DNA of 64,000 bases, taken from assembly GCA_016183985.1 (NCBI GenBank), contig JACPDN010000006.1:744001-808000 (forward strand), written 5' to 3'. Positions 23,222 through 48,143 of the stretch are shown one piece after another (the first letter of the stretch is position 1; each line of letters opens with the position of its first letter). This DNA comes from Pseudomonadota bacterium (GTDB lineage Bacteria; Pseudomonadota; Alphaproteobacteria; Dongiales; Dongiaceae). Made by a program: the position numbers and the translations under genes. A model generated the notes under the pieces. It worked only from the letters and a program-made list of their open reading frames with translations. It was not told the DNA's origin and did no database searches.

Positions 23222-23235
23222 TTGATTTAGATCAA
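23222..23235. promoter_or_regulatory. Perfect FNR/FixK box before the cco operon and the TauE-like gene
   Basis: TTGATTTAGATCAA is an exact TTGAT-N4-ATCAA palindrome in the divergent intergenic region. Towards the cco side, a weak -10 (TAGTTT) lies 22 nt away, which would start transcription about 66 nt before the DUF2189 ATG. Towards the plus strand no -10 is evident at that spacing. It is the best FNR-type site in the window. Confidence 0.8.
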
Positions 23236-25454: not shown

Positions 25455-25468
25455 CTGATTTATATCAA
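25455..25468 (+). promoter_or_regulatory. FNR/FixK box upstream of the DUF2267 gene
   Basis: CTGATTTATATCAA differs from the consensus TTGAT-N4-ATCAA only in the first base and starts 5 nt after the stop of the exonuclease gene. A possible -10 (GATACT, 25493-25498) lies about 24 nt downstream. The next gene starts 51 nt after the box. Confidence 0.65.
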
Positions 25469-25519
25469 AGTCTTCTTATCCGACGACCTTATGATACTGC
25501 CCATCAAGGGAGACGTGGG

Positions 25520-25978
25520 ATGAGCAAGGACCATCTGCCCATTCTCGACAAGAGTGTCGAAGACGTTCATTTGTGGCTTAACACGCTCATGCGGAACCTG
25601 GGTCATCACGACCGAGTGCAGGCATTTCATATCCTGAAGGCCGTGCTGCATGCATTGCGCGACCGCATCGGGCCGGAGAATGCGGTGCATTTCTCGGCGC
25701 AATTGCCACTCATCATCCGCGGCCTCTTCTTCGAAGGCTGGAAGATGAATGCATCGGCGAGCCATGAGCGTCATCTCTCCGACTTTCTGGAGCATGTTGC
25801 GCGAAACCTTGATGAAAATCATCGCGGCAATCTTGAAAGCAATGTACGCGCAGTCTTTTCCGTAATTTGGGAGCGCGTCGACCAAGGTGAAGTCGCCAAG
25901 CTGATGCGTATTTTTCCCAGCGAATTGCGCGTGTTGTGGCAAAGCCCCGAAGTCAGCGCACGCATCGCCAAGGGATAG
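25520..25978 (+). CDS. DUF2267 domain protein
   Basis: 152 residues, all-helical in appearance. It has the DUF2267 pattern (WLNTLMRNLG, AFHILKAVLHALRDRIGPENAVHFSAQLPLIIRGLFFEGW, and a second half ending KLMRIFPSELRVLW). The function of the family is unknown; members are often stress- or anoxia-induced in alphaproteobacteria. GGGAGACGTGGG precedes the ATG. An FNR/FixK box upstream and fixK downstream place it in the low-oxygen regulon. Confidence 0.85.
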   Translation: MSKDHLPILDKSVEDVHLWLNTLMRNLGHHDRVQAFHILKAVLHALRDRIGPENAVHFSAQLPLIIRGLFFEGWKMNASASHERHLSDFLEHVARNLDENHRGNLESNVRAVFSVIWERVDQGEVAKLMRIFPSELRVLWQSPEVSARIAKG

Positions 25979-26122: not shown

Positions 26123-26977
26123 ATGCCTAGTGTTGCCAGTGCCTCGCAGGACCGTATGCACAGTCACGACGTCGTCCTTGCGAACCGCGCTTTGAAACAG
26201 CCGCATCTGGCGAGCGATCACGGGGTCGCCACCTCGGCCATTCAACTGCCGCAACCTCTGCCGGGCCTCCTCGCCCGCGGGCTGACACCCCAAGACATGC
26301 TGCGCGTCAATGCCGCGCGCCCCACCTTCGTCACCCTCGAGCCTGGTGAATCGCTTTATTATCAAGGCGACGATTGCCACAACATCTATCTGCTGCTCGA
26401 TGGCTGGGCCTTCCGCCACCAGATCCTGGAAGACGGCCGGCGCCAGATTCTCGATTTTGCGCTGCCGGGCGTCGTTTTCGGCTTGCCGGGCACCGGCACC
26501 ATGACTCACAGCCTGGAAACGCTCACCACCTGCACCTTCAGTGTCTTCACCCGCGAGCGTCTCTTTGACTTGATGCGCGACGTTCCGACGCTGGGCTTCC
26601 GTCTGCTGGAGATCATGGCCGACGCCGAATCGCGTGCCTTCGAACATTTGACCAGTATCGGCCGTCGCACCGCCAGGGAGCGGGTTGCCCATTTGCTTCT
26701 CGAACTGGTAATGCGCGCCAGCAAGAGCCGGGCTACGCCACGCGACGGAAGCATGACACTGCCGCTGATGCTCCCGCATATCGCCGATGCCCTGGGCCTT
26801 ACCAGCGAAACCGTGTGTCGCGCGCTATCTTCCATGCGGAAGGACCGCATTGCCACACTACGCGGCCAGAAGCTCGACATCCTGGATCTGAAGCGTCTCG
26901 CCACAGCGGCCGGCGTCGACCTCAGCGCAGATGCGGGCAAAGATGCTGGCGGCGGCGCCCTCCGGCTCGCCTCCTGA
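26123..26977 (+). CDS. fixK: Crp/FNR family regulator, FixK-like
   Basis: 284 residues: cyclic-nucleotide-like sensor domain (about 65-175) and a C-terminal Crp-type HTH (about 212-245; IADALGLTSETVCRALSSM). The recognition helix has E229 and R233, as FNR-type proteins that read TTGAT-N4-ATCAA do. The N-terminal Cys cluster of Fe-S FNR is absent, which makes it FixK-like and dependent on FixLJ for oxygen control. C232 takes the place of the Ser found in FNR. GGAGGGG lies 6 nt before the ATG. Four or five matching boxes lie within 30 kb. Confidence 0.88.
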   Translation: MPSVASASQDRMHSHDVVLANRALKQPHLASDHGVATSAIQLPQPLPGLLARGLTPQDMLRVNAARPTFVTLEPGESLYYQGDDCHNIYLLLDGWAFRHQILEDGRRQILDFALPGVVFGLPGTGTMTHSLETLTTCTFSVFTRERLFDLMRDVPTLGFRLLEIMADAESRAFEHLTSIGRRTARERVAHLLLELVMRASKSRATPRDGSMTLPLMLPHIADALGLTSETVCRALSSMRKDRIATLRGQKLDILDLKRLATAAGVDLSADAGKDAGGGALRLAS

Positions 26978-27066: not shown

Positions 27067-29769
27067 GTGACCATCCGCAATCTCGACCGGCTGTTCCGAC
27101 CGCAATCATTGGCCATCATCGGTGCCAGCGCCCGTGAAGGCGCCATCGGCCATGTGCTGGCCCGCAATGTACTTGCCGGCGGCTTTCGTGGCCCGATCGG
27201 TTTCATCAACCCGAAATATCAATCCGTCCTGGATCGCCCTTGCGTGGCCAACATCGGCGCATTGGACGGAGCACCCGATCTTGCCGTCATTGCAACGCCC
27301 GCTGCTACGGTACCAGGTATCGTCAAGGAGCTGGCAGAACGTGGAACGCGCGCGGCCATCATCATCAGCGCTGGTTTCGGCAGCGCGGATGGCCAGGCGC
27401 TGAAGCGCGAGATGCAGTTGGCGGCACGGCCGCATCTCATGCGCATGGTCGGCCCCAATTGCCTGGGCGTAATCGCCCCCATCATCGGCCTCAATGTCAG
27501 CTTTGCGCATCTTTCGCCCAAAAAGGGATCGATCGCCCTGCTGACGCAATCGGGCGCCATCCTGACCTCGGCGCTGGATTGGGCGGCCGCGCGCGGCATC
27601 GGCTTTTCGCATCTGGTGTCGATGGGCGAGATGCTCGACGTTGATTTCGGCGACATGCTCGATTATCTCGCCAGCGATGGCAGCACCAGTGCCATCCTGA
27701 TCTATGCCGAGGCGGTCACCAATGCGCGCAAGTTCGTCTCGGCAGCACGGCGCGCAGCGCGCCTCAAACCCGTCATCATCATCAAAGCGGGACGCTATGG
27801 CGAAACGGCTGGCGCCGTTACCTCGCATACGGGTGCCCTGGCCGGCAGCGATGCGATCTACGACGCCATTTTCCGCCGCGTCGGCCTGTTGCGAGTCGAC
27901 GATTTGGCGGAGCTGTTTGAAGCCATGGAAACGCTGGCACTGATGGGACCGGCCGCTGGCGACCGCTTGACGATCCTTACCAATGGCGGCGGTGCCGGCA
28001 TTCTGGCAGCCGATGCGCTGGTGCGGGCCGGCGGGCATCTTGCCCCGCTTGATCCCGGCGTATTGGAACGCTTGGACCACGTGTTGCCCAAGGGCTGGTC
28101 GCGCGGCAACCCGGTCGACATCATCGGCGATGCTGATGCAGAACGGTACCGCGTCGCCATCGACATCCTGGCGGGCGATGTCCATTCCGACGCATTGCTA
28201 GTGCTCAACAGCCCGACGGCTCTCACCTCCAGCGACGCAGCGGCCGATGCCGTCATCGCCGGCCTGGCCGGCCGCAAGAAGCCGGTGCTGACAAGTTGGA
28301 TCGGCGATCAGACCTCCCGTCCGGCACGGGCGAAATTTGCCGCCGTGAAAATTCCAAGCTATACGACGCCCGAGCAGGCCGTGCGTGCCTTCGGCTATAT
28401 GGTCGCCTATCGACGCAGCCAGATGCTGCTGACCGAGACTCCGCCATCCTTGCCCAGCAATTTCACGCCGGATCATGCGACGGTCCGGCAGATGATCGAT
28501 CAGGCGCTGGCGAAAGGCCGCAGTTTTCTCACTTCGCCGGAATCCCTCGCCGTCATGCGCGCCTATGGCATCAATGTGGTGACCGACGAGATCGTAGCCA
28601 GCCCGCAGGAAGCGCGAAAAAAGGCTGAGGCGATGGCTGAAACTGTAGCCGGGCCGCTGGTGCTCAAGCTGCTGTCGCCGGACATTACTCACAAATCCGA
28701 TATCGGCGGCGTGGTCCTGGGACTGACCGACGGGGCCGCAGTGGAAGCGGCGGCAGCGGCGATGCTGGAACGGGTCGGAGAAATGCGACCCGACGCCCGC
28801 ATCGACGGCTTTACACTATCGCCCATGATCGACCGCAGCGCATCGCAGGAGTTGATTCTAGGGGCCGTGACCGACCCGCAATTCGGCCCCATCATTCTGT
28901 TCGGCCAGGGTGGCACGTCGGTCGAGGTGACGGCCGACAGGTCGCTGGCCCTACCCCCGCTCAACCTCAAGCTCGCGCGAGAACTCATCGCCGATACGCG
29001 GGTTTATCGCCTGTTGCAGGGATATAGGGAAAGGCCGGCAGCCGATCTCGACAGCATTGCTCTGTCATTGATGCGGGTTGCCCAATTGGTGATGGATTTT
29101 GCCGAGATCCAGGAGCTCGACATCAATCCTCTGCTGGCTAACGAACATACCGTCATCGCCCTTGACGCGCGCATTCGCGTCGCCAGGAGCGCTGTGGCGC
29201 CGCAAAGTCGGCTGGCCATCCGTCCGTATCCGCAAGAACTGGAGGAGATCGTTCCAGACCCTGCCGGCGGATCGCTGCTGCTGCGTCCAATCCGGCCGGA
29301 AGATGAGCCGGGAATGTTGGAAGCGTTCAAGCACCTGTCGTCGGAAAGCGTCGAGTTGCGCTTCTTTCGCGTCGTCACCAACCCGTCGCATCAGATGATC
29401 GCAGGCCTCACCCAGATCGATTACGACCGCGAGATGGCCCTGGTTCTCACCGATATCGATACACCCGAAGGGGAGACTCCACCGATCTACGCCGATGTGC
29501 GCCTGTTGATGGATCCCGACCGCGTAGAGGCAGAATATGCAATCATCGTCCGCGATGACATGGCAGGGCGCGGTTTCGGCAGTCTGATGATGGAGCGCAT
29601 CATCGCCTATGGCCGCTCCATTAACCTTTCCCGTATCACCGGGCTGGTGCGCATGGAGAATGCCAGCATGCTGGCAATCTGCCAGCGCCTTGGTTTCACA
29701 CGCCGTGTCGATCCGGATATGCCGGGCCTATTTCATGTGACGAAGGAATTAAGTGGCCGCAGCGCGTAA
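27067..29769 (+). CDS. Bifunctional acyl-CoA synthetase (ADP-forming)-like / GNAT acetyltransferase, Pat/PatZ type
   Basis: 900 residues from a GTG. In order: CoA-binding domain (about 1-130; SLAIIGASAREGAIGHVL), succinyl-CoA-ligase-like flavodoxin folds (about 150-460; LLTQSGAILTS, SHTGALAGSD), ATP-grasp (about 480-700; LSPDITHKSDIGGVVLG) and a GNAT domain (about 730-895; DDMAGRGFGSLMMERII). This is the protein lysine acetyltransferase architecture (YfiQ/PatZ), which acetylates and inactivates acetyl-CoA synthetase and other enzymes. It follows fixK by 89 nt on the same strand, and acetate genes (pta, ackA) occur elsewhere in the window. Confidence 0.9.
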   Translation: MTIRNLDRLFRPQSLAIIGASAREGAIGHVLARNVLAGGFRGPIGFINPKYQSVLDRPCVANIGALDGAPDLAVIATPAATVPGIVKELAERGTRAAIIISAGFGSADGQALKREMQLAARPHLMRMVGPNCLGVIAPIIGLNVSFAHLSPKKGSIALLTQSGAILTSALDWAAARGIGFSHLVSMGEMLDVDFGDMLDYLASDGSTSAILIYAEAVTNARKFVSAARRAARLKPVIIIKAGRYGETAGAVTSHTGALAGSDAIYDAIFRRVGLLRVDDLAELFEAMETLALMGPAAGDRLTILTNGGGAGILAADALVRAGGHLAPLDPGVLERLDHVLPKGWSRGNPVDIIGDADAERYRVAIDILAGDVHSDALLVLNSPTALTSSDAAADAVIAGLAGRKKPVLTSWIGDQTSRPARAKFAAVKIPSYTTPEQAVRAFGYMVAYRRSQMLLTETPPSLPSNFTPDHATVRQMIDQALAKGRSFLTSPESLAVMRAYGINVVTDEIVASPQEARKKAEAMAETVAGPLVLKLLSPDITHKSDIGGVVLGLTDGAAVEAAAAAMLERVGEMRPDARIDGFTLSPMIDRSASQELILGAVTDPQFGPIILFGQGGTSVEVTADRSLALPPLNLKLARELIADTRVYRLLQGYRERPAADLDSIALSLMRVAQLVMDFAEIQELDINPLLANEHTVIALDARIRVARSAVAPQSRLAIRPYPQELEEIVPDPAGGSLLLRPIRPEDEPGMLEAFKHLSSESVELRFFRVVTNPSHQMIAGLTQIDYDREMALVLTDIDTPEGETPPIYADVRLLMDPDRVEAEYAIIVRDDMAGRGFGSLMMERIIAYGRSINLSRITGLVRMENASMLAICQRLGFTRRVDPDMPGLFHVTKELSGRSA

Positions 29770-30672: not shown

Positions 30673-31284
30673 CTAGCTCAGTTTCAACGTGCCCAGTTCC
30701 AATGCCATGCGAACCAGCTCGGGAAGATTCTTCGCCTTCATCTTTTCCATCACACGGGCGCGGTGGATTTCGACCGTCCGGATGCTGATGTCGAGCGCGT
30801 GGGCGACTATTTTGTTGGCATCGCCCGCCACGAGGAGATCGAACACCTCCCGCTCGCGCGCGGTGAGGCTGTCAAGACGCCCCTGCAACTCGGCACTGGC
30901 TGGGCGCAGCCGCAGTCGATCCTGGTGCTTTTTCACCGCGGCCGCGATGGCCTCCAGGATAGCTTCGTCGGTGAAAGGTTTTTCGACGAAATCGGCAACA
31001 CCCGCCTTCATGGCGGCCACCGCCAGCGGCACCTCACCATGGCCAGTCATAATGATGACTGGCACGTCGACGCCAGCCTTGCCAAGCGCTGCGAACAGCG
31101 CCATGCCGTCCATGCCGGGCATGCGCACGTCGGTCACCAGGCAATCCGGCACTTTTTCGGCGCAGCGCGCCAGCACCGGCTCGGCGCCAGGGAATGCTTC
31201 GATGGCAAGGCCGGCTGATTCCAGCAGAATGGTGAGCGAGTCGCGAACTGCGTCGTCATCATCGACAATATAGACCAGTGTCAT
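30673..31284 (-). CDS. fixJ: FixJ-like response regulator
   Basis: 203 residues: receiver domain (about 1-120) with DDDD acidic patch, phosphoacceptor D52 in [22 protein letters not shown] and VEKPF, then a LuxR-type HTH ([34 protein letters not shown]). FixJ activates fixK and related promoters once phosphorylated by FixL. It overlaps fixL by 4 nt, and direct repeats resembling its target lie before fixK. Confidence 0.93.
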
Positions 31285-32438
31285 CCCGTCTTTCCGTCCG
31301 TCTCATCGGTAATCGGCAGCGCGATATAGAAGGTGGCGCCGCGTTTGGAATTGGGGCTGGCCCAAAGCCGCCCGCCATGTGAATCAATGATGGTCTTGCA
31401 GATGGAGAGGCCGAGCCCCATGCCGCGTTCCTTGGTCGTCACGAAAGGCTGAAAGAGTTGCGCCATGACCTTGGGCGCAAGGCCCGGGCCACTGTCGCTG
31501 ATCGAAATCTGCGCCGTGTCGCCACCGACCAGGCCCGTCGTCACGGTGAGATCGCGCGGCAAAGGATGCTCGCTCATCGCCTCGACGCTGTTGCGGATGA
31601 TGTTGAAGACCACCTGCTGGATTTGCACCTTGTCGATGAGGACCGGCATCGGCTCGGTGCCCAGCACCCAGCGCACATTGATGCTGCTCTCCTTGGCGCC
31701 AACAAGGGCCAAGGCCGTCGCCTCCTCGACCACGTTGTTGAGTTCCTCGATCTGGCGCTCCGCCTCGCCGCGCTGGATGAAGCTGCGCAGGTGACGGATG
31801 ATCTCACCGGCACGGGCTGCCTGAGTCACCGCCTTTTCCATCGTTTCGGCGATCTTGGGCGAATGATGGCCTTCGGCCTGCAACATGCGGCGGGTCGCCT
31901 GAACGTAATTGACGATCGCCGCCAGCGGCTGGTTGAGCTCGTGGGCAAGCGTTGAGGCCATCTGGCCGACGTCGCTCAAACGCGAAACATGGAGCAGCTC
32001 CAACTGCAATTCATGCAGACGGTTTTCGGTGAGCTGACGCTCCGAGAGGTCGCGGATGAAACCGGTGAAATGGCGTTTGCCGCCGATCATCGCCTCGCCC
32101 ACCGAGAGCTCGATGGGAAATGCGCTGCCGTCCTTGCGCTGGCCAACGACGATGCGGCCGATGCCGATGATCCGCCGCTCGCCGGTTTCCAGATAGCTGC
32201 GGATATAGCTGTCATGCCGCTCGTGATAGGGCGAGGGCATGAGAATACTGACATTCTGCCCGATCACTTCGCCAGACCTATAACCAAAGAGCCGCTCGGC
32301 GGCCGGGCTGAAGGATTCGATGATACCACGCTCATCGATGACCAGAATGGCATCAGGCGCGGTTTCGAGAATCGACCGCAGCCGCGCCTCACGTTCGCGC
32401 AGCATGTCATGCGTGACTGTGCCTTCGTTCTCGATCAT
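31281..32438 (-). CDS. fixL: FixL-like heme PAS sensor histidine kinase
   Basis: 385 residues, soluble. A PAS domain (about 15-130) carries [20 protein letters not shown] and [16 protein letters not shown]75 and R95 align with the heme-ligand His and oxygen-sensing Arg of rhizobial FixL. A HisKA domain follows with H166 in [14 protein letters not shown], then HATPase with [15 protein letters not shown] and [11 protein letters not shown]. With oxygen released from heme, FixL phosphorylates FixJ. Membrane helices are absent, as in Bradyrhizobium-type FixL. Divergent from the P-type ATPase gene. Confidence 0.92.
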
Positions 32439-40395: not shown

Positions 40396-41253
40396 TCAGA
40401 ATTTCTGCGGCACTTGCTTAAAGACATAATTCGGCGCTCGGTAGCCTTTTGCCTTCTGGCGCTTGGGCAGAGCGATCTTGGGCCGCGATACTGGATGATA
40501 GGGAATCAGCCCAAGAAGATGCGTGATGATGTTAAGGCGCCCGCGCTTCTTATCGTCTGTATCGGCAACATACCAGGGTGCCCAGGGAGTATCGGTGGCT
40601 TGGATCATGTCGTCGCGCGCCCGCGAATAGTCGTACCAACGGCTGTATGATTTGAGATCCATAGGGGACAGCTTCCAGAGTTTCCGGCCGTCGCTGATGC
40701 GAGATTTGATCCGTCGCGTCTGCTCATCCTCGCTCACCTCGAGCCAGTACTTAATGAGAAGAATGCCGGATTCAACCATCGCCTTCTCCACGGCCGGCGC
40801 GATGCGCAGGAATTTTTGCACTTGCTCTTCGCTGCAGAGACCCATGACCCGTTCGACGCCGGCGCGGTTGTACCAAGAGCGATCGAAGATCACGATCTCG
40901 CCGGCCGCAGGCAGGTGCTTCAAATAGCGCTGGACGTACATCTGGGATTTTTCACGTTCAGTCGGCGCCGGAAGTGCCACGACACGGAATATCCGAGGGC
41001 TCACCCGTTCGGTGATCGCCTTGATGGCGCCACCCTTGCCAGCTGTATCACGGCCTTCAAACAGGATGCAGATCTTAGCGCCCGTCGATATTGCCCATTG
41101 CTGCAGAGTTACCAACTCGACATGAAGCTTGCGCAATTCGGCAGCATATTCCTTGTTGCCGAGCTTCGTGCCGCCGGGTGCCTCATCTCCGCTCCGGTTA
41201 CGACCCGCCATTGCCTTCCTTGCTTTGGCGGCACTCTTAGCGACCTTTGCCAT
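40396..41253 (-). CDS. ppk2: Polyphosphate kinase 2 family protein, class I type
   Basis: 285 residues: a Lys/Ala-rich N-terminus, then the PPK2 fold with Walker A FEGRDTAGKGG (67-75), Walker B VIFDRSWYNRAGVERVMG and the lid SRISDGRKLWKLSPMD. Class I PPK2 enzymes use polyphosphate to phosphorylate nucleoside diphosphates, making ATP or GTP when respiration is limited. One PPK2 domain only. A hypothetical gene follows on the same strand. Confidence 0.93.
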   Translation of the reverse strand: MAKVAKSAAKARKAMAGRNRSGDEAPGGTKLGNKEYAAELRKLHVELVTLQQWAISTGAKICILFEGRDTAGKGGAIKAITERVSPRIFRVVALPAPTEREKSQMYVQRYLKHLPAAGEIVIFDRSWYNRAGVERVMGLCSEEQVQKFLRIAPAVEKAMVESGILLIKYWLEVSEDEQTRRIKSRISDGRKLWKLSPMDLKSYSRWYDYSRARDDMIQATDTPWAPWYVADTDDKKRGRLNIITHLLGLIPYHPVSRPKIALPKRQKAKGYRAPNYVFKQVPQKF

Positions 41254-41613: not shown

Positions 41614-42864
41614 ATGCCAATGATTTCACGGATCGCGACGACCTTTGTTGGGTTGGCCTTGGCATTTGCCATGACCACCGCCGCCCATGCCGAGGATTTC
41701 GAAATCGGCAGCAATGTGAAGGCAAGCCATATCCTGCCGGCTAATGTCCTGGCCGGTCCGCATTACCGCATCGCCGACAAAGTCATCAGCGATGGTCTGC
41801 TCTATACCTTTACCGTGGAATCTGAGTATGGCACCTTTCAGCCGACGGGTACTTACGCGCTGCAGAAGGTACTTAATGAGATCCGGGTGATTGCAGCGCT
41901 CAAGGACATCAGTCGTACAGAGGCTTTCGCCCAATCCGTGCTCTATGCAGCCAAATCGCCCTTGCGCTTCGGCGAAAGCATGATCACCGATCCTGTTGAT
42001 ACCATCACCGGAGTCCCGCGCGGCTTGTTTGCGATCTTCGAGAATGTGGCCGAAAGCGTGTCTTCCGACGCCAATCCGAGCGAGGATGCCCGCATCAAGC
42101 AGGCACTGATGGTTTCGTCATGGAAGCGCGAATATTGCGCCGATATGGGCTGCGACGTTTATTCCAGTAACAAGTCGCTGCAGGAGGAGCTCAACCGCAT
42201 CGGCTGGGCGGCGGCGATCGGTGGTCTCACCGTGTCCGGCGCCACCACGGTTGCCTCGGGCGGAGCCGTCATGGCGTTCAGCCTGGTACGCACATCCGAC
42301 CAGCTCAATGAAGCGCTGCGCTCCGAACCACCATCACGCCTGCGCATCATCAATGAGGAAAAGCTTGAGGATCTCGGTATCAATCACGAGCTGGCGGAAC
42401 ACTTCCTCGATCATCCGGCCTTCACCCCGCGGCACGCCACGCTGATCGTCGAGGCGCTTCACGATATGAAGGGCGTCAAAGGCCTCGACCGCTTCCTGGA
42501 ACTATGTCTGCGCGCGCAGGATGAGGTGGGCGCCAATTTCTATCAGAACACGGCTGAGATTCTGCGTGGCTACCACACCAAGAATGCGCGGCTCACTGAG
42601 ATCATCCCCGTGCTGGGTGTCGCCGCCGCGAGCGCTGCCAATGGGCATGTCGTTGTGGCCGTGGCCTGGGATAACGGCGTTTATGATCCGGCCATCGCCA
42701 AGCGCATCGATTACGGTCGCGCGCAGTTCGAGAAGGCCGGATTCAAGAAGGGCTTCGATATCTGGACCACGGGCACGGCGAGCAAGCGGCTCAAGGAAGA
42801 ACTCGCCAAGCGCGGCTTCACTCTTGCCGAGCACATTGAACAGAAAGTGCCTATTACGCAATAA
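41614..42864 (+). CDS. Exported protein of unknown function
   Basis: 416 residues with a Sec signal peptide (FVGLALAFAMTTAAHA, cleavage before EDF). The mature protein has YTFTVESEYGTFQPTGTYALQKV and a central segment with two Cys (REYCADMGCDVYSS). A Gly/Ala-rich hydrophobic stretch (WAAAIGGLTVSGATTVASGGAV) may span or insert into a membrane. The C-terminal half is alpha/beta. I do not recognise a family. GGGGAG precedes the ATG. It precedes the FNR-type promoter of the DUF3141 operon but is not part of it. Confidence 0.75.
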   Translation: MPMISRIATTFVGLALAFAMTTAAHAEDFEIGSNVKASHILPANVLAGPHYRIADKVISDGLLYTFTVESEYGTFQPTGTYALQKVLNEIRVIAALKDISRTEAFAQSVLYAAKSPLRFGESMITDPVDTITGVPRGLFAIFENVAESVSSDANPSEDARIKQALMVSSWKREYCADMGCDVYSSNKSLQEELNRIGWAAAIGGLTVSGATTVASGGAVMAFSLVRTSDQLNEALRSEPPSRLRIINEEKLEDLGINHELAEHFLDHPAFTPRHATLIVEALHDMKGVKGLDRFLELCLRAQDEVGANFYQNTAEILRGYHTKNARLTEIIPVLGVAAASAANGHVVVAVAWDNGVYDPAIAKRIDYGRAQFEKAGFKKGFDIWTTGTASKRLKEELAKRGFTLAEHIEQKVPITQ

Positions 42865-42920: not shown

Positions 42921-42963
42921 CTGACTTAGATCAATACCGCATCGCACAATTTCGCGCTAAGAT
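42921..42963 (+). promoter_or_regulatory. FNR/FixK box and -10 of the DUF3141-pta-fabI-ackA operon
   Basis: CTGACTTAGATCAA (42921-42934) has one mismatch to TTGAY-N4-ATCAA and is almost identical to the uspA box. A TAAGAT at 42958-42963 lies 23 nt beyond it, near class II spacing, placing the transcription start near 42970. This also argues that translation starts at ATG 42995 and not at the earlier in-frame ATG 42962. Confidence 0.7.
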
Positions 42964-42994
42964 GCGGCACGCAACCGACCTCGTGAGGTGCGCA

Positions 42995-45172
42995 ATGACG
43001 TCGCGTGAGCCCGGTCCCCAGATCTTCACCCCCTTCAGCGCTCTCCAGGAATATTGCCTCGACGCCTGGCAGCGCGCCGTCCTGACCCTCGACGTGCTGC
43101 ACGAACGCGGCATCAATTACGACGAGCGCGCGACGGCAACCGCGCCCAATGTGCTCACCTTCGACGCTGAATTGATCCTCGACGGCTGCACGCTCTTGCA
43201 CCCTGTGAATTACGCACTGATGCGCATCGTACCGCCAGCCGAGGTGACGATCGACATGGCGAAGCGACCCTTCGTCGTCTTCGATCCCCGGGCCGGCCAC
43301 GGTCCCGGCATTGGCGGCATGAAGCATGACAGCGAAATCGGCGTCGCCCTGCGGGCAGGTCATCCCTGTTATTTCGTCGGCTTCACACCGGCACCGGTGC
43401 CCGGCCAGACCATCGCCGATGTCTGCATGGCCGAAGCGTATTTTCTTGAACAGGTGGTTGCCCGTCATCCGGAATCGGACAAGCCAGCACTGATCGGTAA
43501 TTGCCAAGCCGGCTGGCAGATCATGATGATGAGCGCATTGCGACCTGATCTGCCGGGCCCAATCATTCTCGCTGGATCGCCGCTTTCCTATTGGGCCGGT
43601 GAGCGCGGCAAGGCGCCGATGCGCTATCTGGGCGGATTGCTGGGTGGAACATGGCTCACCGCCCTTGCCGGCGATCTTGGTAACGGCATTTTTGATGGTG
43701 CCAATCTGGTCGCCAATTTCGAAGGCATGCATCCTTCCAACACGCTTTGGAAAAAGCCGCACGATCTTTACGCCAAGGTCGATACTGAGGCGGCCCGCTT
43801 CCTGGAATTCGAGAAATGGTGGGGTAGTCCCGTCCTGCTCAATGCGGGAGAAATGCAATCCATCGCCGACGATCTCTTTGTCGGCAACAAACTCACGTCG
43901 GGCGAATTGAATACCGAGGACGGCGTTGGCGTCGACTTACGCGAAATTCGCTCGCCGATCGTTGTATTTTGCTCCCATGGTGACGACATCACGCCGCCGC
44001 CGCAGGCCCTCCAATGGGTGCTCGATCTTTACGGCGGCGAGCAGGAGATCATCGCCAATGGGCAGACCATCATCTACTGCCTGCATCAGAGCATCGGCCA
44101 TCTCGGCATCTTCGTCTCTGGCAAGGTCGCTACCCGCGAGCATGACGAGTTCGCCCTGTCGATGGACCTCATCGATGTAACACCGCCAGGCCTTTATGAA
44201 GCCGTGATCTCCGGCATAGATGACTCTCTCGCCAACCCCGACCTTGTCGCCGGCAAATATCTGTTCCAACTCGAAAAGCGCAGCTTCGACGATTTGCGCG
44301 CAATCTGTCATCCCGATCCCGAGGACGAGCGCTGCTTTGAAGCAGCGGCTCAGGTGTCGCGTGCCAACCTCGCGCTCTATCGCATGATGCTGGCGCCGAT
44401 CGTGCGGGCGGCAGCGAATGCGCCGGTAGCCGCTTTGATGCGCGAGTGGCATCCCAACCGCATGCGCTTCCGTGCCTTCTCCAACAGCAATCCGCTGATG
44501 CCGCCCGTTGCCACATTGGCTGAGGTCGTGCGACAGAACCGCCAGCCGGCGCGACCCGACAATTCCTTTACCGCCATGGAGCGTTTCGTCTCCGCCTCGC
44601 TCGAACAGACTCTCGACGCTTGGACCAAATGGCGTGACATGATCCAGGAAGAAGTTTTTTTCGGCGTCTACGGGTCGCCGATCCTCCAGGCTTTGGCTGG
44701 CCTCGATTCCAGTCGCCATGCGGAAGGGCGACGCAGCCAACGTGAACTTGCACGCACGGCCAGGGAAGCACAGTTTGCCGACACACTCGCCCAGAAAATC
44801 GACAGCGGCGGCCTGATCGAGGCCGGCATTCGCGCAATGCTCTATGTGCGCATGTCCGAAGGCCGCGTCGACGAGCGCGCCTTCGCCGCCTTGAAGCAGA
44901 TTGCTGCCGAGCGTGCCGGCGCGGGCATGTCGCTTGCCAAGTTCAAGGAAGTGTTGCGAGAGCAGTATCTTCTTCTGCACTATCACAATGTGGCGGCCAT
45001 GGCTGCGCTGCCCAAACTTTTGCCGGCCGACGCGGTGCAACGTGCGGCGCTGCTCGATATCATCCGCCGCGTCGTCACCGCCCGTGGACCCTTACCGCCT
45101 GAGAGCGATATTCGCCTCAAAGAGGTTGAGGCCTTGCTGGGCGCAACGGGCAGCAAGCGCAGCGCTGCCTAG
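42995..45172 (+). CDS. DUF3141 protein, PHA-synthase-like alpha/beta hydrolase
   Basis: 725 residues from ATG 42995 (GAGG upstream). The N-terminal two thirds is an alpha/beta hydrolase related to PHA synthase: a GNCQAG nucleophile elbow with C170 (as in the PhaC GxCxG box), VVFCSHGDDITPPPQ supplying the Asp and HQSIGHLGIF the His. A helical C-terminal region of about 250 residues is particular to this family. Polymerising or transferring hydroxyacyl groups from CoA is plausible but unproven. It leads an operon with pta, fabI and ackA under an FNR/FixK box. Confidence 0.82.
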   Translation: MTSREPGPQIFTPFSALQEYCLDAWQRAVLTLDVLHERGINYDERATATAPNVLTFDAELILDGCTLLHPVNYALMRIVPPAEVTIDMAKRPFVVFDPRAGHGPGIGGMKHDSEIGVALRAGHPCYFVGFTPAPVPGQTIADVCMAEAYFLEQVVARHPESDKPALIGNCQAGWQIMMMSALRPDLPGPIILAGSPLSYWAGERGKAPMRYLGGLLGGTWLTALAGDLGNGIFDGANLVANFEGMHPSNTLWKKPHDLYAKVDTEAARFLEFEKWWGSPVLLNAGEMQSIADDLFVGNKLTSGELNTEDGVGVDLREIRSPIVVFCSHGDDITPPPQALQWVLDLYGGEQEIIANGQTIIYCLHQSIGHLGIFVSGKVATREHDEFALSMDLIDVTPPGLYEAVISGIDDSLANPDLVAGKYLFQLEKRSFDDLRAICHPDPEDERCFEAAAQVSRANLALYRMMLAPIVRAAANAPVAALMREWHPNRMRFRAFSNSNPLMPPVATLAEVVRQNRQPARPDNSFTAMERFVSASLEQTLDAWTKWRDMIQEEVFFGVYGSPILQALAGLDSSRHAEGRRSQRELARTAREAQFADTLAQKIDSGGLIEAGIRAMLYVRMSEGRVDERAFAALKQIAAERAGAGMSLAKFKEVLREQYLLLHYHNVAAMAALPKLLPADAVQRAALLDIIRRVVTARGPLPPESDIRLKEVEALLGATGSKRSAA

Positions 45173-45197
45173 GTCGTCACGAAAGAAGGCACCACTG

Positions 45198-46154
45198 ATG
45201 AACCGCGAAGTTATCGACCGCCCACATGAGAAATATGAGCGACTGCTGGCGGCCGCCCGTGGGACGGCAGCGGTTCCGACAGCCGTCGTTCATCCCTGCG
45301 ATCCGATTGCACTCGATTCAGCCATCGAGGCCGCACGTGCTGACCTCATCGATCCGATTCTGGTCGGCCCCGCAACGAAGATCCGTGCTGCGGCCGAACG
45401 CGCAAGCCTCGATATTAGTGCGTTGCCGCTGATCGATGCGGGCCATAGCCATGAAGCTGCCGCCTTGGCCGTCGGCTTGGTTCGCGAAGGCCGCGTGCAG
45501 GCGCTTATGAAAGGCAGTCTTCACACAGATGAACTGATGGGGGCAGTCGTCGCCCGGGAGACCGGCATCCGTACCGCAAGGCGCATCAGTCATTGCTTTG
45601 TGATGGATATTCCTGGCCACCCCTTGCCTCTCATCATCACGGATGCGGCGGTCAATATCGCGCCCACACTCGAGGACAAGGTCGATATCGTTCAGAACGC
45701 GATCGACCTCGCCCATGCCTTGCGTTTCGAAGAGGTCCGGGTGGCCATTCTGAGCGCCATGGAAACGGTCAATCCAAAGGTCGCTTCCACCATCGAGGCG
45801 GCTGCCTTATGCAAAATGGCTGACCGCGGCCAGATCACCGGTGCGCTTCTGGACGGGCCACTGGCGCTCGACAACGCCATCAGCATGGAAGCGGCGCAAA
45901 TCAAAGGCATCCGATCGCCCGTCGCTGGCCAGGCCAATGTACTTGTCGTGCCGGATCTCGAGGCCGGCAATATGCTGGCCAAGAGCCTTTCCTTTCTGGC
46001 CGGTGCCGATGCTGCGGGTATCGTGCTGGGCGCAAAGGTGCCGATCATCCTGACCAGCCGTGCAGACAGTCTGCTGACGCGGCTTGCATCCTGTGCCGTG
46101 GCCTGCCTGGTCGTCGCAGCACGGCGATCCGATGCCGCCAAAGCAATCGCCTGA
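45198..46154 (+). CDS. Phosphate acetyl/butyryltransferase
   Basis: 318 residues from ATG 45198 (AAGAAGG upstream). It is of the phosphotransacetylase family without an N-terminal regulatory part: DLIDPILVGP, GRVQALMKGSLHTDELM, LPLIITDAAVNIAPTLEDK and DLEAGNMLAKSLSFLAGADAAGIVLGAKVP. It interconverts acyl-CoA and acyl-phosphate. With the acetate kinase two genes downstream it allows ATP to be made from acetyl-CoA (or butyryl-CoA) when respiration is limited. Confidence 0.9.
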   Translation: MNREVIDRPHEKYERLLAAARGTAAVPTAVVHPCDPIALDSAIEAARADLIDPILVGPATKIRAAAERASLDISALPLIDAGHSHEAAALAVGLVREGRVQALMKGSLHTDELMGAVVARETGIRTARRISHCFVMDIPGHPLPLIITDAAVNIAPTLEDKVDIVQNAIDLAHALRFEEVRVAILSAMETVNPKVASTIEAAALCKMADRGQITGALLDGPLALDNAISMEAAQIKGIRSPVAGQANVLVVPDLEAGNMLAKSLSFLAGADAAGIVLGAKVPIILTSRADSLLTRLASCAVACLVVAARRSDAAKAIA

Positions 46155-46174
46155 TCTCTCAGCCGGGAGCGCAC

Positions 46175-46954
46175 ATGACCGACCAGATCCGACCCGTTCT
46201 TGCCGGCATGAAGGCCCTTGTGGTCGGCGTCGCCAACGAACATTCGATTGCCTATGGCTGCGCCAGTGCTTTCCGGGCAGCCGGGGCGAATCTTGCCGTC
46301 ACCTGGCTCAATGATAAAGCCCGCCCACATGTCGAACCGCTGGCACTCGAACTTGGCGCAGAACTGACTGCGCCATTGGATGTATCGCAGCCAGGTCAAT
46401 TGGAGGCGGTATTCGAGCGCATCTCGGCCAGATGGGGAAAGCTGGATATTCTCGTCCATTCCATTGCCTTTGCGCCCAAGGATGATCTTGCTGGCGGATT
46501 GCTCAATTGCTCTGCCGATGGCTTTGCCAAGGCCATGGACATTTCATGCCATTCCTTCGTGCGCATGGCCAAACTCGCAGCGCCGCTGATGACGGATGGC
46601 GGCTCGATGTTCGCCATGAGCTATCATGGCGCCAACCGTGTCGTGCCGAATTATAACGTCATGGGCCCCGTAAAGGCAGCATTGGAAGCTGCTTGCCGCT
46701 ATCTCGCCTACGAATTGGGCCCGCAAGGCATCAGGGTACATGCGATCTCGCCGGGGCCACTGAAGACACGGGCAGCCTCGGGCCTCAGGGATTTCGAACT
46801 GCTCCTCAACAAGGCGGCGGAGACGGCGCCGCTCGGCGAACTGGTCGATATCATGGATGTGGGCTACACTTGCGCCTATCTGGCGACGCCGTTTGCCAAG
46901 CGCGTCACCGGCAGTACCGTCTATGTCGATGGCGGCGCGAATATCGTGGCCTAA
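46175..46954 (+). CDS. fabI: Enoyl-[acyl-carrier-protein] reductase, FabI type
   Basis: 259-residue SDR-type protein with the FabI-specific cofactor segment VVGVANEHSIAYGCA, HSIAFAPK and the Tyr-x6-Lys pair in NYNVMGPVKAALE. It reduces the enoyl double bond in fatty acid synthesis or, as a second copy here, of a short-chain acyl-CoA or ACP intermediate. Its place between pta and ackA suggests a special role in a low-oxygen operon and not the housekeeping enzyme. Only 20 nt after pta. Confidence 0.88.
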   Translation: MTDQIRPVLAGMKALVVGVANEHSIAYGCASAFRAAGANLAVTWLNDKARPHVEPLALELGAELTAPLDVSQPGQLEAVFERISARWGKLDILVHSIAFAPKDDLAGGLLNCSADGFAKAMDISCHSFVRMAKLAAPLMTDGGSMFAMSYHGANRVVPNYNVMGPVKAALEAACRYLAYELGPQGIRVHAISPGPLKTRAASGLRDFELLLNKAAETAPLGELVDIMDVGYTCAYLATPFAKRVTGSTVYVDGGANIVA

Positions 46955-46958
46955 GCCG

Positions 46959-48143
46959 ATGCAAGACTGCCTCGCCGTCCTTAATGCTGGATCATCGAGC
47001 ATCAAGTTCGCCCTCTACGACGCGGCTGGATGCAAGCGCCTGCTCCATGGCCAGATCGAAGGGATCGGTACGGCGCCGCATCTCAGCCTGGTGGATGCCA
47101 ACGGCGCCATCCGCCTTGAGCGCCGTTGGGCAGCCGATGAACTTGATCACGATTTAGCGACGCGTGAAATCTTCGCTGCGGTGAGCGGCACAATGACTGG
47201 AGCGCGCCTCGCAGCTGTCGGTCACCGGGTAGTTCATGGCGGGGCGAACTACAAAAGATCAATACGAGTCAACGACAAGATCCTGGCAGACCTTGATGCC
47301 TTGATTCCTCTCGCACCACTGCATCAGCCGCACAACCTGGCACCCATCCGCACCATCACCGGCAGGCATCCACATTTGCCGCAGGTCGCCTGCTTCGATA
47401 CGGCCTTCCATCAAGCGCAGCCGTTGTTGGCGCAAACCTTCGCCCTGCCGCGCTATTACTTTGATCAAGGTGTCCGCCGCTATGGCTTCCACGGCCTTTC
47501 CTATGAGTATGTGAGCCATCGCCTGCACGAAATCTGTCCCGACCTTGCCAAGGGACGCGTCATTATTGCGCATTTGGGCAATGGCGCCAGTCTCTGCGCC
47601 GTCAAGGACGGTCGGAGTGTCGCCAGCACCATGGGTTTCACAGCGGTCGACGGGCTGATGATGGGCACGCGCTGCGGCACGATCGATCCCGGCGTCATCC
47701 TCTATCTCATGGATAAGGAAGGACTCGACAGCCGCGGCATTGCCGACCTTGTCTATCGCCGCTCCGGCCTGCTCGGCGTGTCCGGCATTTCATCCGACAT
47801 GCGAACCTTACGCGCATCGACGGCACCGGAAGCAGCTGAGGCAATTGCACTCTTCGAATATCGCATCATCCGCGAAGTTGGATCTCTCGTCGCCGCATTG
47901 GGTGGTCTCGACGGATTGATTTTCACTGCCGGCATCGGCGAGCATGATGCCGCGACCCGTGCCAATGTCATGACGGGTTGTGCTTGGCTCGGCCTCATCG
48001 CCGACATAGCGCGTAATGCTGACGGCAGGGGTCGCATCAGCGCCGATGATTCATCCGTCGCTGCTTGGGTGGTGCCCACCGATGAGGAAGGCATGATCGC
48101 CCATCATACCGCGGCCCTGCTGACGATGGCACCCGCCGACTAG
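46959..48143 (+). CDS. ackA: Acetate/propionate/butyrate kinase (AckA family)
   Basis: 394 residues from ATG 46959, 4 nt after the fabI stop. It has the ASKHA-fold signatures LNAGSSSIKF, GHRVVHGG, FHQAQP (catalytic region), GFHGLSYEYVS, IIAHLGNGASLCAV and FTAGIGEHD. It makes ATP from acyl-phosphate supplied by the phosphotransacetylase. Its end overlaps the stop of the convergent AI-2E transporter gene by 4 nt. Confidence 0.93.
   Translation: MQDCLAVLNAGSSSIKFALYDAAGCKRLLHGQIEGIGTAPHLSLVDANGAIRLERRWAADELDHDLATREIFAAVSGTMTGARLAAVGHRVVHGGANYKRSIRVNDKILADLDALIPLAPLHQPHNLAPIRTITGRHPHLPQVACFDTAFHQAQPLLAQTFALPRYYFDQGVRRYGFHGLSYEYVSHRLHEICPDLAKGRVIIAHLGNGASLCAVKDGRSVASTMGFTAVDGLMMGTRCGTIDPGVILYLMDKEGLDSRGIADLVYRRSGLLGVSGISSDMRTLRASTAPEAAEAIALFEYRIIREVGSLVAALGGLDGLIFTAGIGEHDAATRANVMTGCAWLGLIADIARNADGRGRISADDSSVAAWVVPTDEEGMIAHHTAALLTMAPAD

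Follow-up and report, generated by a model that had tools for sequence, protein, structure and literature searches.

What does a protein resembling a polyhydroxyalkanoate (PHA) synthase contribute to a gene set that otherwise handles acyl phosphates and enoyl groups? The question is raised by a locus in a bacterium of the family Dongiaceae (Alphaproteobacteria; assembly GCA_016183985.1), where a DUF3141 gene is followed by genes for a phosphotransacylase, a FabI-family enoyl reductase and an AckA-type kinase. It lies in a stretch of 64,000 nucleotides of contig JACPDN010000006.1 (positions 744,001 to 808,000), which was analysed as a whole and is called the window below. The four genes are probably switched on at low oxygen, and the operon appears to release a short-chain acid from a stored or activated form while making ATP. 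Our leading, still tentative reading is a FixK/FNR-type low-oxygen fermentation module in which 3-hydroxyacyl-CoA would yield acid and ATP by way of enoyl-CoA and acyl-CoA; in it, we infer cotranscription, the acting regulator, the role of a hydratase, the substrates and the direction. An earlier prediction made from the bare sequence (the original prediction) had proposed a fermentative or storage module, which our reasoning supports as a general idea, although a module of this type is not new. The features of the operon are as follows.

42921..42934, + strand: FixK/FNR-type box CTGACTTAGATCAA, one mismatch from TTGAYNNNNRTCAA
42958..42963, + strand: likely -10 element TAAGAT, placing the box centre at about -42 from the presumed transcription start, a putative class II position
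42995..45172, + strand: DUF3141 protein of 725 amino acids (PF11339, 853 bits), with a predicted PhaC-like alpha/beta hydrolase core at about residues 50-400, then a helical C-terminal region
45198..46154, + strand: phosphotransacylase, annotated Pta, nearer phosphate butyryltransferase (PRK11890, 510.7 bits, cut-off 413)
46175..46954, + strand: FabI-family enoyl reductase (PRK07533, 442 bits, above the cut-off of 337)
46959..48143, + strand: AckA, a kinase of the acetate/propionate family (TIGR00016, 366.5 bits, above the cut-off of 293.4)

The shared strand and the short gaps of 25, 20 and 4 bases between consecutive genes suggest a single transcript. Matches to PF11339, PRK11890, PRK07533 and TIGR00016 confirmed the one-strand set of DUF3141, Pta-type enzyme, FabI and AckA that the original prediction had named, so that the window carries the gene content of the operon type known from Sinorhizobium meliloti (DUF3141, phosphotransacylase, acyl kinase and FabI on one strand). 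The DUF3141 protein more likely starts at ATG 42995 than at the alternative ATG 42962, because GAGGT lies 5 bases upstream of the former, and the latter overlaps the likely -10 element.

How would such an operon be controlled? Taken as a single site, the window box is weak: it differs at one position from TTGAYNNNNRTCAA, the FixK/FNR box pattern used here, and at two from TTGATNNNNATCAA, and the window holds 31 sites with up to two mismatches to TTGATNNNNATCAA, whereas 100 shuffles averaged 20.4 and all stayed below 31. Judged by its conservation in relatives, the box rises above chance. The relatives were the best 80 of 573 confirmed ones, a choice that leans to close relatives and includes 16 from Bradyrhizobium; group labels were assigned by hand from record titles. 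In the locus L040, from the same genus, the corresponding box is CTGATCCAGATCAA. Among 100 of the 101 loci, the window included and L086 left out as it is cut at its start, 32 have a perfect box within 400 bases upstream of DUF3141, and 43 have one with no more than a single mismatch, against shuffle expectations of about 0.3 and 3; none of 99 gene interiors contains a box that close to the pattern. Such boxes precede 35 of 56 complete operons, 5 of 14 partial ones and 3 of 30 lone DUF3141 genes (complete versus lone, Fisher p 1.6e-6, uncorrected for relatedness); since related loci are not independent, significance is overstated by both the shuffle and the Fisher figures. A gene is called lone if no same-strand partner lies from -3 to +7 kb; some contigs stop short of this, and at L090 the partners lie 8 kb away.

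The whole genome holds 26 perfect boxes, compared with 2 matches to the reversed control pattern, and further boxes in the window are at 23222 (perfect) and 25455 (one mismatch). A DUF2267 gene (25455-25978), situated after a beta-CASP/RMMBL hydrolase gene, has a one-mismatch box about 50 bases upstream. At the operon itself, the box and a -10-like element at a fitting distance are consistent with a putative FNR/FixK class II promoter. The 43 boxes with at most one mismatch, that of the window among them, show a modest excess of T and A at 36-40 bases from the box start (56% T at position 36 and 44-47% thereafter), which fits a -10 element with the box centred near -41.5.

Genes that could serve low-oxygen regulation are encoded in the same window:

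26123..26977, + strand: Crp/FNR-family regulator, FnrL/FixK-like, the candidate regulator (119.7 and 100.3 bits, cut-offs 300)
30673..31284, - strand: FixJ-like response regulator (248.7 bits, cut-off 255)
31281..32438, - strand: FixL-like PAS sensor kinase (506.7 bits, cut-off 850)

All of these proteins score under their curated cut-offs. The window further encodes a cbb3 oxidase, FixG and a heavy-metal ATPase, probably a copper ATPase. Four Crp-type genes were found in the genome, including the FnrL/FixK-like one of the window, whose product is a candidate for the regulator of the operon. The FNR/FixK control proposed in the original prediction thereby gains indirect support from the conserved box and from the FixLJ/FixK-like genes. 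About 90 bases after the FnrL/FixK-like gene, positions 27067-29769 encode a 900-amino-acid protein resembling ADP-forming acyl-CoA synthetases, with a C-terminal GNAT domain.

Which acyl group would the operon handle? The second gene had been called phosphotransacetylase. It does encode a phosphotransacylase, which passes PRK11890, a model itself named "phosphate acetyltransferase", but the label needs correcting in that, by sequence comparison, the protein is nearer phosphate butyryltransferase than the acetyl enzymes. Against solved structures it reached 209.8 bits with phosphate butyryltransferase and 57.8 bits with the best phosphate acetyltransferase; the corresponding curated models gave 286.2 bits for P_butyryltrans (TIGR02706), below the cut-off of 410.5, and 78.6 bits for canonical pta (TIGR00651), below the cut-off of 311.2. 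The protein used in these searches began at 45201, one codon after the start at ATG 45198. The other two matches to the PTA domain in the genome lie within long frames of 789 and 808 amino acids, probably malic-enzyme fusions.

A MaoC hydratase-type domain is fused to the phosphotransacylase in 8 of the 68 loci with a Pta hit (hidden Markov model (HMM) built from six of the eight fusions; Pfam confirmed all three that were run). Twelve of the 16 Bradyrhizobium loci have a MaoC-type gene on the opposite strand, 5-12 kb downstream, as detected by an HMM built from those same genes, one member of which was run in Pfam. CoA-transferase-type genes are found nearby in 14 and 10 loci, mostly of Bradyrhizobium (two clusters, one member of each run). 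The genome of the window has a stand-alone MaoC gene (98.2 bits) on contig C10; in NCBIfam this gene best matches the hydratase half of the fused family, and we infer that its product may act as an R-specific hydratase. The same contig also carries a PhaC_N gene.

Both remaining enzymes have a counterpart in the genome: one other FabI was found at E up to 1e-20, 45% identical to that of the operon, and one further AckA scores over the cut-off. As a possible mark of substrate choice we considered the AckA residue equivalent to Pro232 of the Methanosarcina thermophila enzyme, which is Ala in 56 of 58 operon kinases; because the second genomic AckA has Ala too, it is no sign of an operon-specific substrate.

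The lead protein is best described as a predicted PhaC-like Cys-Asp-His enzyme, and here the PhaC-type triad of the original prediction was borne out. Cys170, Asp330 and His369 (numbered from 42995) are invariant in all 58 aligned DUF3141 proteins. In the structural model (mean predicted local distance difference test (pLDDT) 85.6, predicted template modelling (pTM) score 0.87), they follow strands 165-169, 322-327 and 358-364 of what is predicted to be an alpha/beta hydrolase core. Alignment set A2, thinned by hand, comprised 57 of 78 usable loci plus the window, and set A3 comprised 51 of those 57 plus the window. With VIA-align, the seven solved entries most similar to the model were all PhaC (Z 23.0-24.7, 12-16% identity), followed by gastric lipase (Z 21.0); Foldseek also placed PhaC first, with modest TM-scores (first row 0.30 by query and 0.54 by target). 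A search of the single DUF3141 sequence against solved structures gave no match, and a DUF3141 profile reached PhaC at E 0.011. Pfam did not find PhaC_N (PF07167) in the window DUF3141, and the PHA synthase model TIGR01836 gave 19.3 bits, below its cut-off of 365.3.

For the C-terminal helical region, Pfam gave no family besides DUF3141 in the three proteins run, and Foldseek gave nothing at E up to 0.001. VIA-align returned 2h5n (Z 9.5 over 105 residues; next entry 5.5), a value that helical models reach by chance. The region is at most possibly TerB-like.

DUF3141 is grouped with PHA synthase in PMC11878206, which also describes the triad in the depolymerase PhaZ, so that the triad cannot tell a synthase from a depolymerase. 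A genome note labels the family phaZ (PMC8050969), and PMC8601165 links it to class III synthase. DUF3141 is still of unknown function in the Pfam release used, and no assay of it turned up in the accessible open-licence literature, which is no proof of absence. In the S. meliloti locus L137, a second, short and partial DUF3141-like match (43% over 86 amino acids) lies about 7.2 kb past the DUF3141 start on the other strand, and many S. meliloti plasmid records have two or three DUF3141-like places.

In some loci, the position of DUF3141 is taken by a PhaC_N protein. Six regions were chosen by eye from 60 listed (243 records matched), and three of them, all plasmid-borne, have such a protein (181-192 bits; TIGR01838 519-552 bits, below the cut-off of 622.65) together with MaoC-Pta and AckA; they come from Sphingobium xenophagum, Paracoccus yeei and Tateyamaria omphalii. 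FabI is present in the loci of P. yeei and T. omphalii. The other three regions have a DUF3141 gene or a DUF3141 motif in an unannotated stretch; in the Burkholderia aenigmatica plasmid locus L149, for instance, the NCQAGW motif of DUF3141 occurs at about 4065 with no listed gene, before pta, ackA and fabI.

How widely is this association kept? All three partners lie near DUF3141 on the same strand in 56 of the 100 loci, including beta- and deltaproteobacterial contigs, and 15 of the 16 Bradyrhizobium loci have the full operon; gene order varies. In a sample of 385 genomes of the class, 76 have a DUF3141 match of some kind, 30 one over the cut-off and 17 a long one (>380 bits). PhaC_N (E up to 1e-20) is found in 16 of these 17 genomes and in 228 of the 368 others (Fisher p 0.004, uncorrected for genome size or relatedness, the DUF3141 and PhaC_N samples being taken as the same 385 genomes). 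The single long-DUF3141 genome that lacks PhaC_N, G355, has a partial DUF3141 match.

Several neighbouring genes recur. A 416-amino-acid protein (41614-42864) with a signal-peptide-like start, as judged by eye, and no Pfam or NCBIfam match directly precedes the operon, and a 79% identical copy occupies the same place in a genome of the same genus. A PPK2 polyphosphate kinase gene (40396-41253, - strand) adjoins the operon, and several relatives likewise have PPK2-like genes close to DUF3141. A family of about 160 amino acids (gene cluster 4, e.g. L096:17648-18130; one member run, no Pfam match) occurs in 21 of the 101 fetched loci. A GNAT acetyltransferase-type gene (gene cluster 5, e.g. L057:180-725, - strand; one member run in Pfam) occurs in 19, in 16 of them on the strand opposite DUF3141.

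The fermentation module that we favour would work as follows. A FixK/FNR-type regulator would turn on the operon at low oxygen. PHA or a related pool would supply (R)-3-hydroxyacyl-CoA, released or handed on by DUF3141, and this would be converted to enoyl-CoA by an R-specific hydratase whose gene lies elsewhere in the genome but is fused to that of the phosphotransacylase in some relatives. FabI would reduce the enoyl-CoA with NADH to acyl-CoA. The Ptb-like enzyme would then form acyl phosphate, and AckA would yield free acid and ATP. The enoyl reduction by FabI would set the direction of the pathway as an NADH outlet. In a more specific and unlikely version, DUF3141 starts an anaerobic fermentation of PHA by CoA thiolysis of the polyester, and a PhaJ-type hydratase, FabI, the Ptb-like enzyme and AckA lead to a butyrate-like acid; if true, one NADH would be used and one ATP made per monomer, and respiring bacteria could survive anoxia on PHA.

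Several observations weigh against the fermentation module. Its weak points are the substrate range of AckA, the lack of a hydratase gene in the window operon and the activity of DUF3141, which is predicted only. The kinase is of the acetate/propionate type, and butyrate kinase models matched it weakly, at 32-63 bits and below their thresholds; the 1999 study of the S. meliloti operon reportedly found activities with acetyl substrates. FabI may be restricted to acyl-ACP, and two purpose-built HMMs of MaoC domains match nothing in the window. DUF3141 is patchy: within the family it occurs in 3 of 17 genomes, within the genus in 2 of 7. In 30 of the 100 loci no partner lies in the span searched, the contig being short in some cases. 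The box is absent from 21 of the 56 complete operons and present in only 7 of the 22 named groups with a complete operon (hand count); upstream of the plasmid-borne PhaC genes, it occurs with one mismatch in Paracoccus and not in the other two (best 4 mismatches). According to PMC3475010, butyrate was not a substrate of Salmonella AckA, although an older E. coli study mentioned there reported AckA able to use it. In Bacillus cereus, butyrate formed during use of polyhydroxybutyrate (PHB) is drawn from acetyl-CoA and not from PHB; the same source names crotonyl-CoA as an intermediate of PHB breakdown and describes Ptb and Buk as peaking at 48 h, when PHB is consumed and oxygen is short (PMC7236355).

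Ranking close behind the fermentation module is an acetyl-only overflow, which we consider possible though somewhat unlikely. Here, Pta and AckA would convert acetyl-CoA to acetyl phosphate and acetate with a gain of ATP, at low oxygen or in phosphate stress, with DUF3141 and FabI acting separately in storage or lipid metabolism. The type of the kinase and the acetyl activities reported for S. meliloti in 1999 fit this explanation, whereas the phosphotransacylase is far nearer phosphate butyryltransferase, a MaoC-type domain is fused to it in 8 of 68 loci, and DUF3141 keeps all three partners in 56 of 100. In the phaR mutant of Bradyrhizobium diazoefficiens, pta (blr3457) and two ackA genes (blr3458 and bll2517) rise and are read as acetate-pathway genes, in favour of the acetyl-only explanation; known FixK2 targets are also up in that mutant (PMC10888616).

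Could the operon run the other way? The assimilation of acetate or other acids, activated by AckA and Pta for PHA synthesis by a PhaC-like enzyme, is distinctly unlikely in our assessment, though both enzymes are generally reversible. Such a role has been proposed for the phaC-pta-ack clusters of Burkholderia (PMC8231600). In the case of the window, however, reduction by FabI would lead to a saturated acyl group, away from hydroxyacyl monomers, low-oxygen control would better suit an outlet for NADH with a gain of ATP, and a PhaC_N gene (276.4 bits) exists separately in the genome.

A phosphate-stress module serving membrane lipids or phosphate economy appears quite improbable. It draws on the PhoB control described for the S. 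meliloti operon (PMC8231600, PMC5789663) and on the PPK2 gene close by. PHO boxes show no clear enrichment upstream of DUF3141, where FNR boxes are enriched instead: with an E. coli-type PHO consensus, which a divergent PHO box might escape, 12 of 100 loci have a site with at most 4 mismatches against about 8.5 in shuffles, but so do 25 of 99 gene interiors. The best site in the window has 5 mismatches to this consensus, and the 12 loci do not include L137, from S. meliloti, for which a PHO box has been reported. A loose set of stress genes without a common pathway is highly improbable, as the three partners stay nearby on the same strand in 56 loci, beta- and deltaproteobacterial contigs included, despite the varying gene order and the 30 DUF3141 genes with no partner in the searched span.

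If true, the fermentation module would assign a function to DUF3141, make PHA an anaerobic store of energy and electrons, and account for the joint occurrence, in many bacteria of soil and nodules, of a phosphotransacylase-kinase pair with an enoyl reductase and a PHA-synthase-like gene.

How, then, does the locus compare with known systems? The operon type is already known, and the likeness of DUF3141 to PhaC is already in print. Our contributions, not claimed to be absent from print, are the conservation of the box across relatives, the placing of DUF3141 at the orfA position of S. meliloti and the replacement of DUF3141 by PhaC in other loci; we add the nearness of "Pta" to phosphate butyryltransferase and the MaoC-type fusion in 8 of 68 loci. 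With PHA synthase PhaC (5t6o, 5hz2, 5xav, 6k3c, 9knj-9knl), DUF3141 shares the predicted fold and the Cys-Asp-His triad; it differs by its low identity (12-16%), the lack of PhaC_N, the motif GNCQAG in place of the G-x-C-x-G of PhaC, and an extra C-terminal helical region. The Ptb-Buk butyrate pathway offers the nearest solved structure to the phosphotransacylase, phosphate butyryltransferase (7vg9), yet the window enzyme scores under the curated Ptb cut-off, and its kinase is of the acetate/propionate type rather than a butyrate kinase.

The closest match in make-up is reportedly the orfA-pta-ackA-fabI operon of S. meliloti studied by Summers et al. in 1999. In S. meliloti RCAM1115, the gene preceding pta, ackA and fabI is annotated DUF3141, and by position we take orfA to be the DUF3141 gene. 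The clusters of Burkholderia sensu lato (phaC-pta-ack-fabI, phaC group D, with a PhaJ-Pta fusion in D1) also place a PhaC-type enzyme beside Pta, AckA and FabI and are read as serving PHA synthesis (PMC8231600); their lead gene is called PhaC, whereas that of the window is a DUF3141 gene without PhaC_N. A Burkholderia locus activated by low oxygen was considered as an analogue and set aside; PMC3759415 places ackA and pta in all Burkholderia genomes examined there, without reference to this operon in its relevant passages, and was not used as support. Phosphate starvation induces the S. meliloti operon (ORF-pta-ack-fabI) through PhoB (PMC8231600; more briefly PMC5789663). In the window, the order of fabI and ackA is swapped and a FixK/FNR box stands upstream, in contrast to the reported phosphate control, although the S. 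meliloti stretch, too, carries a box with one mismatch.

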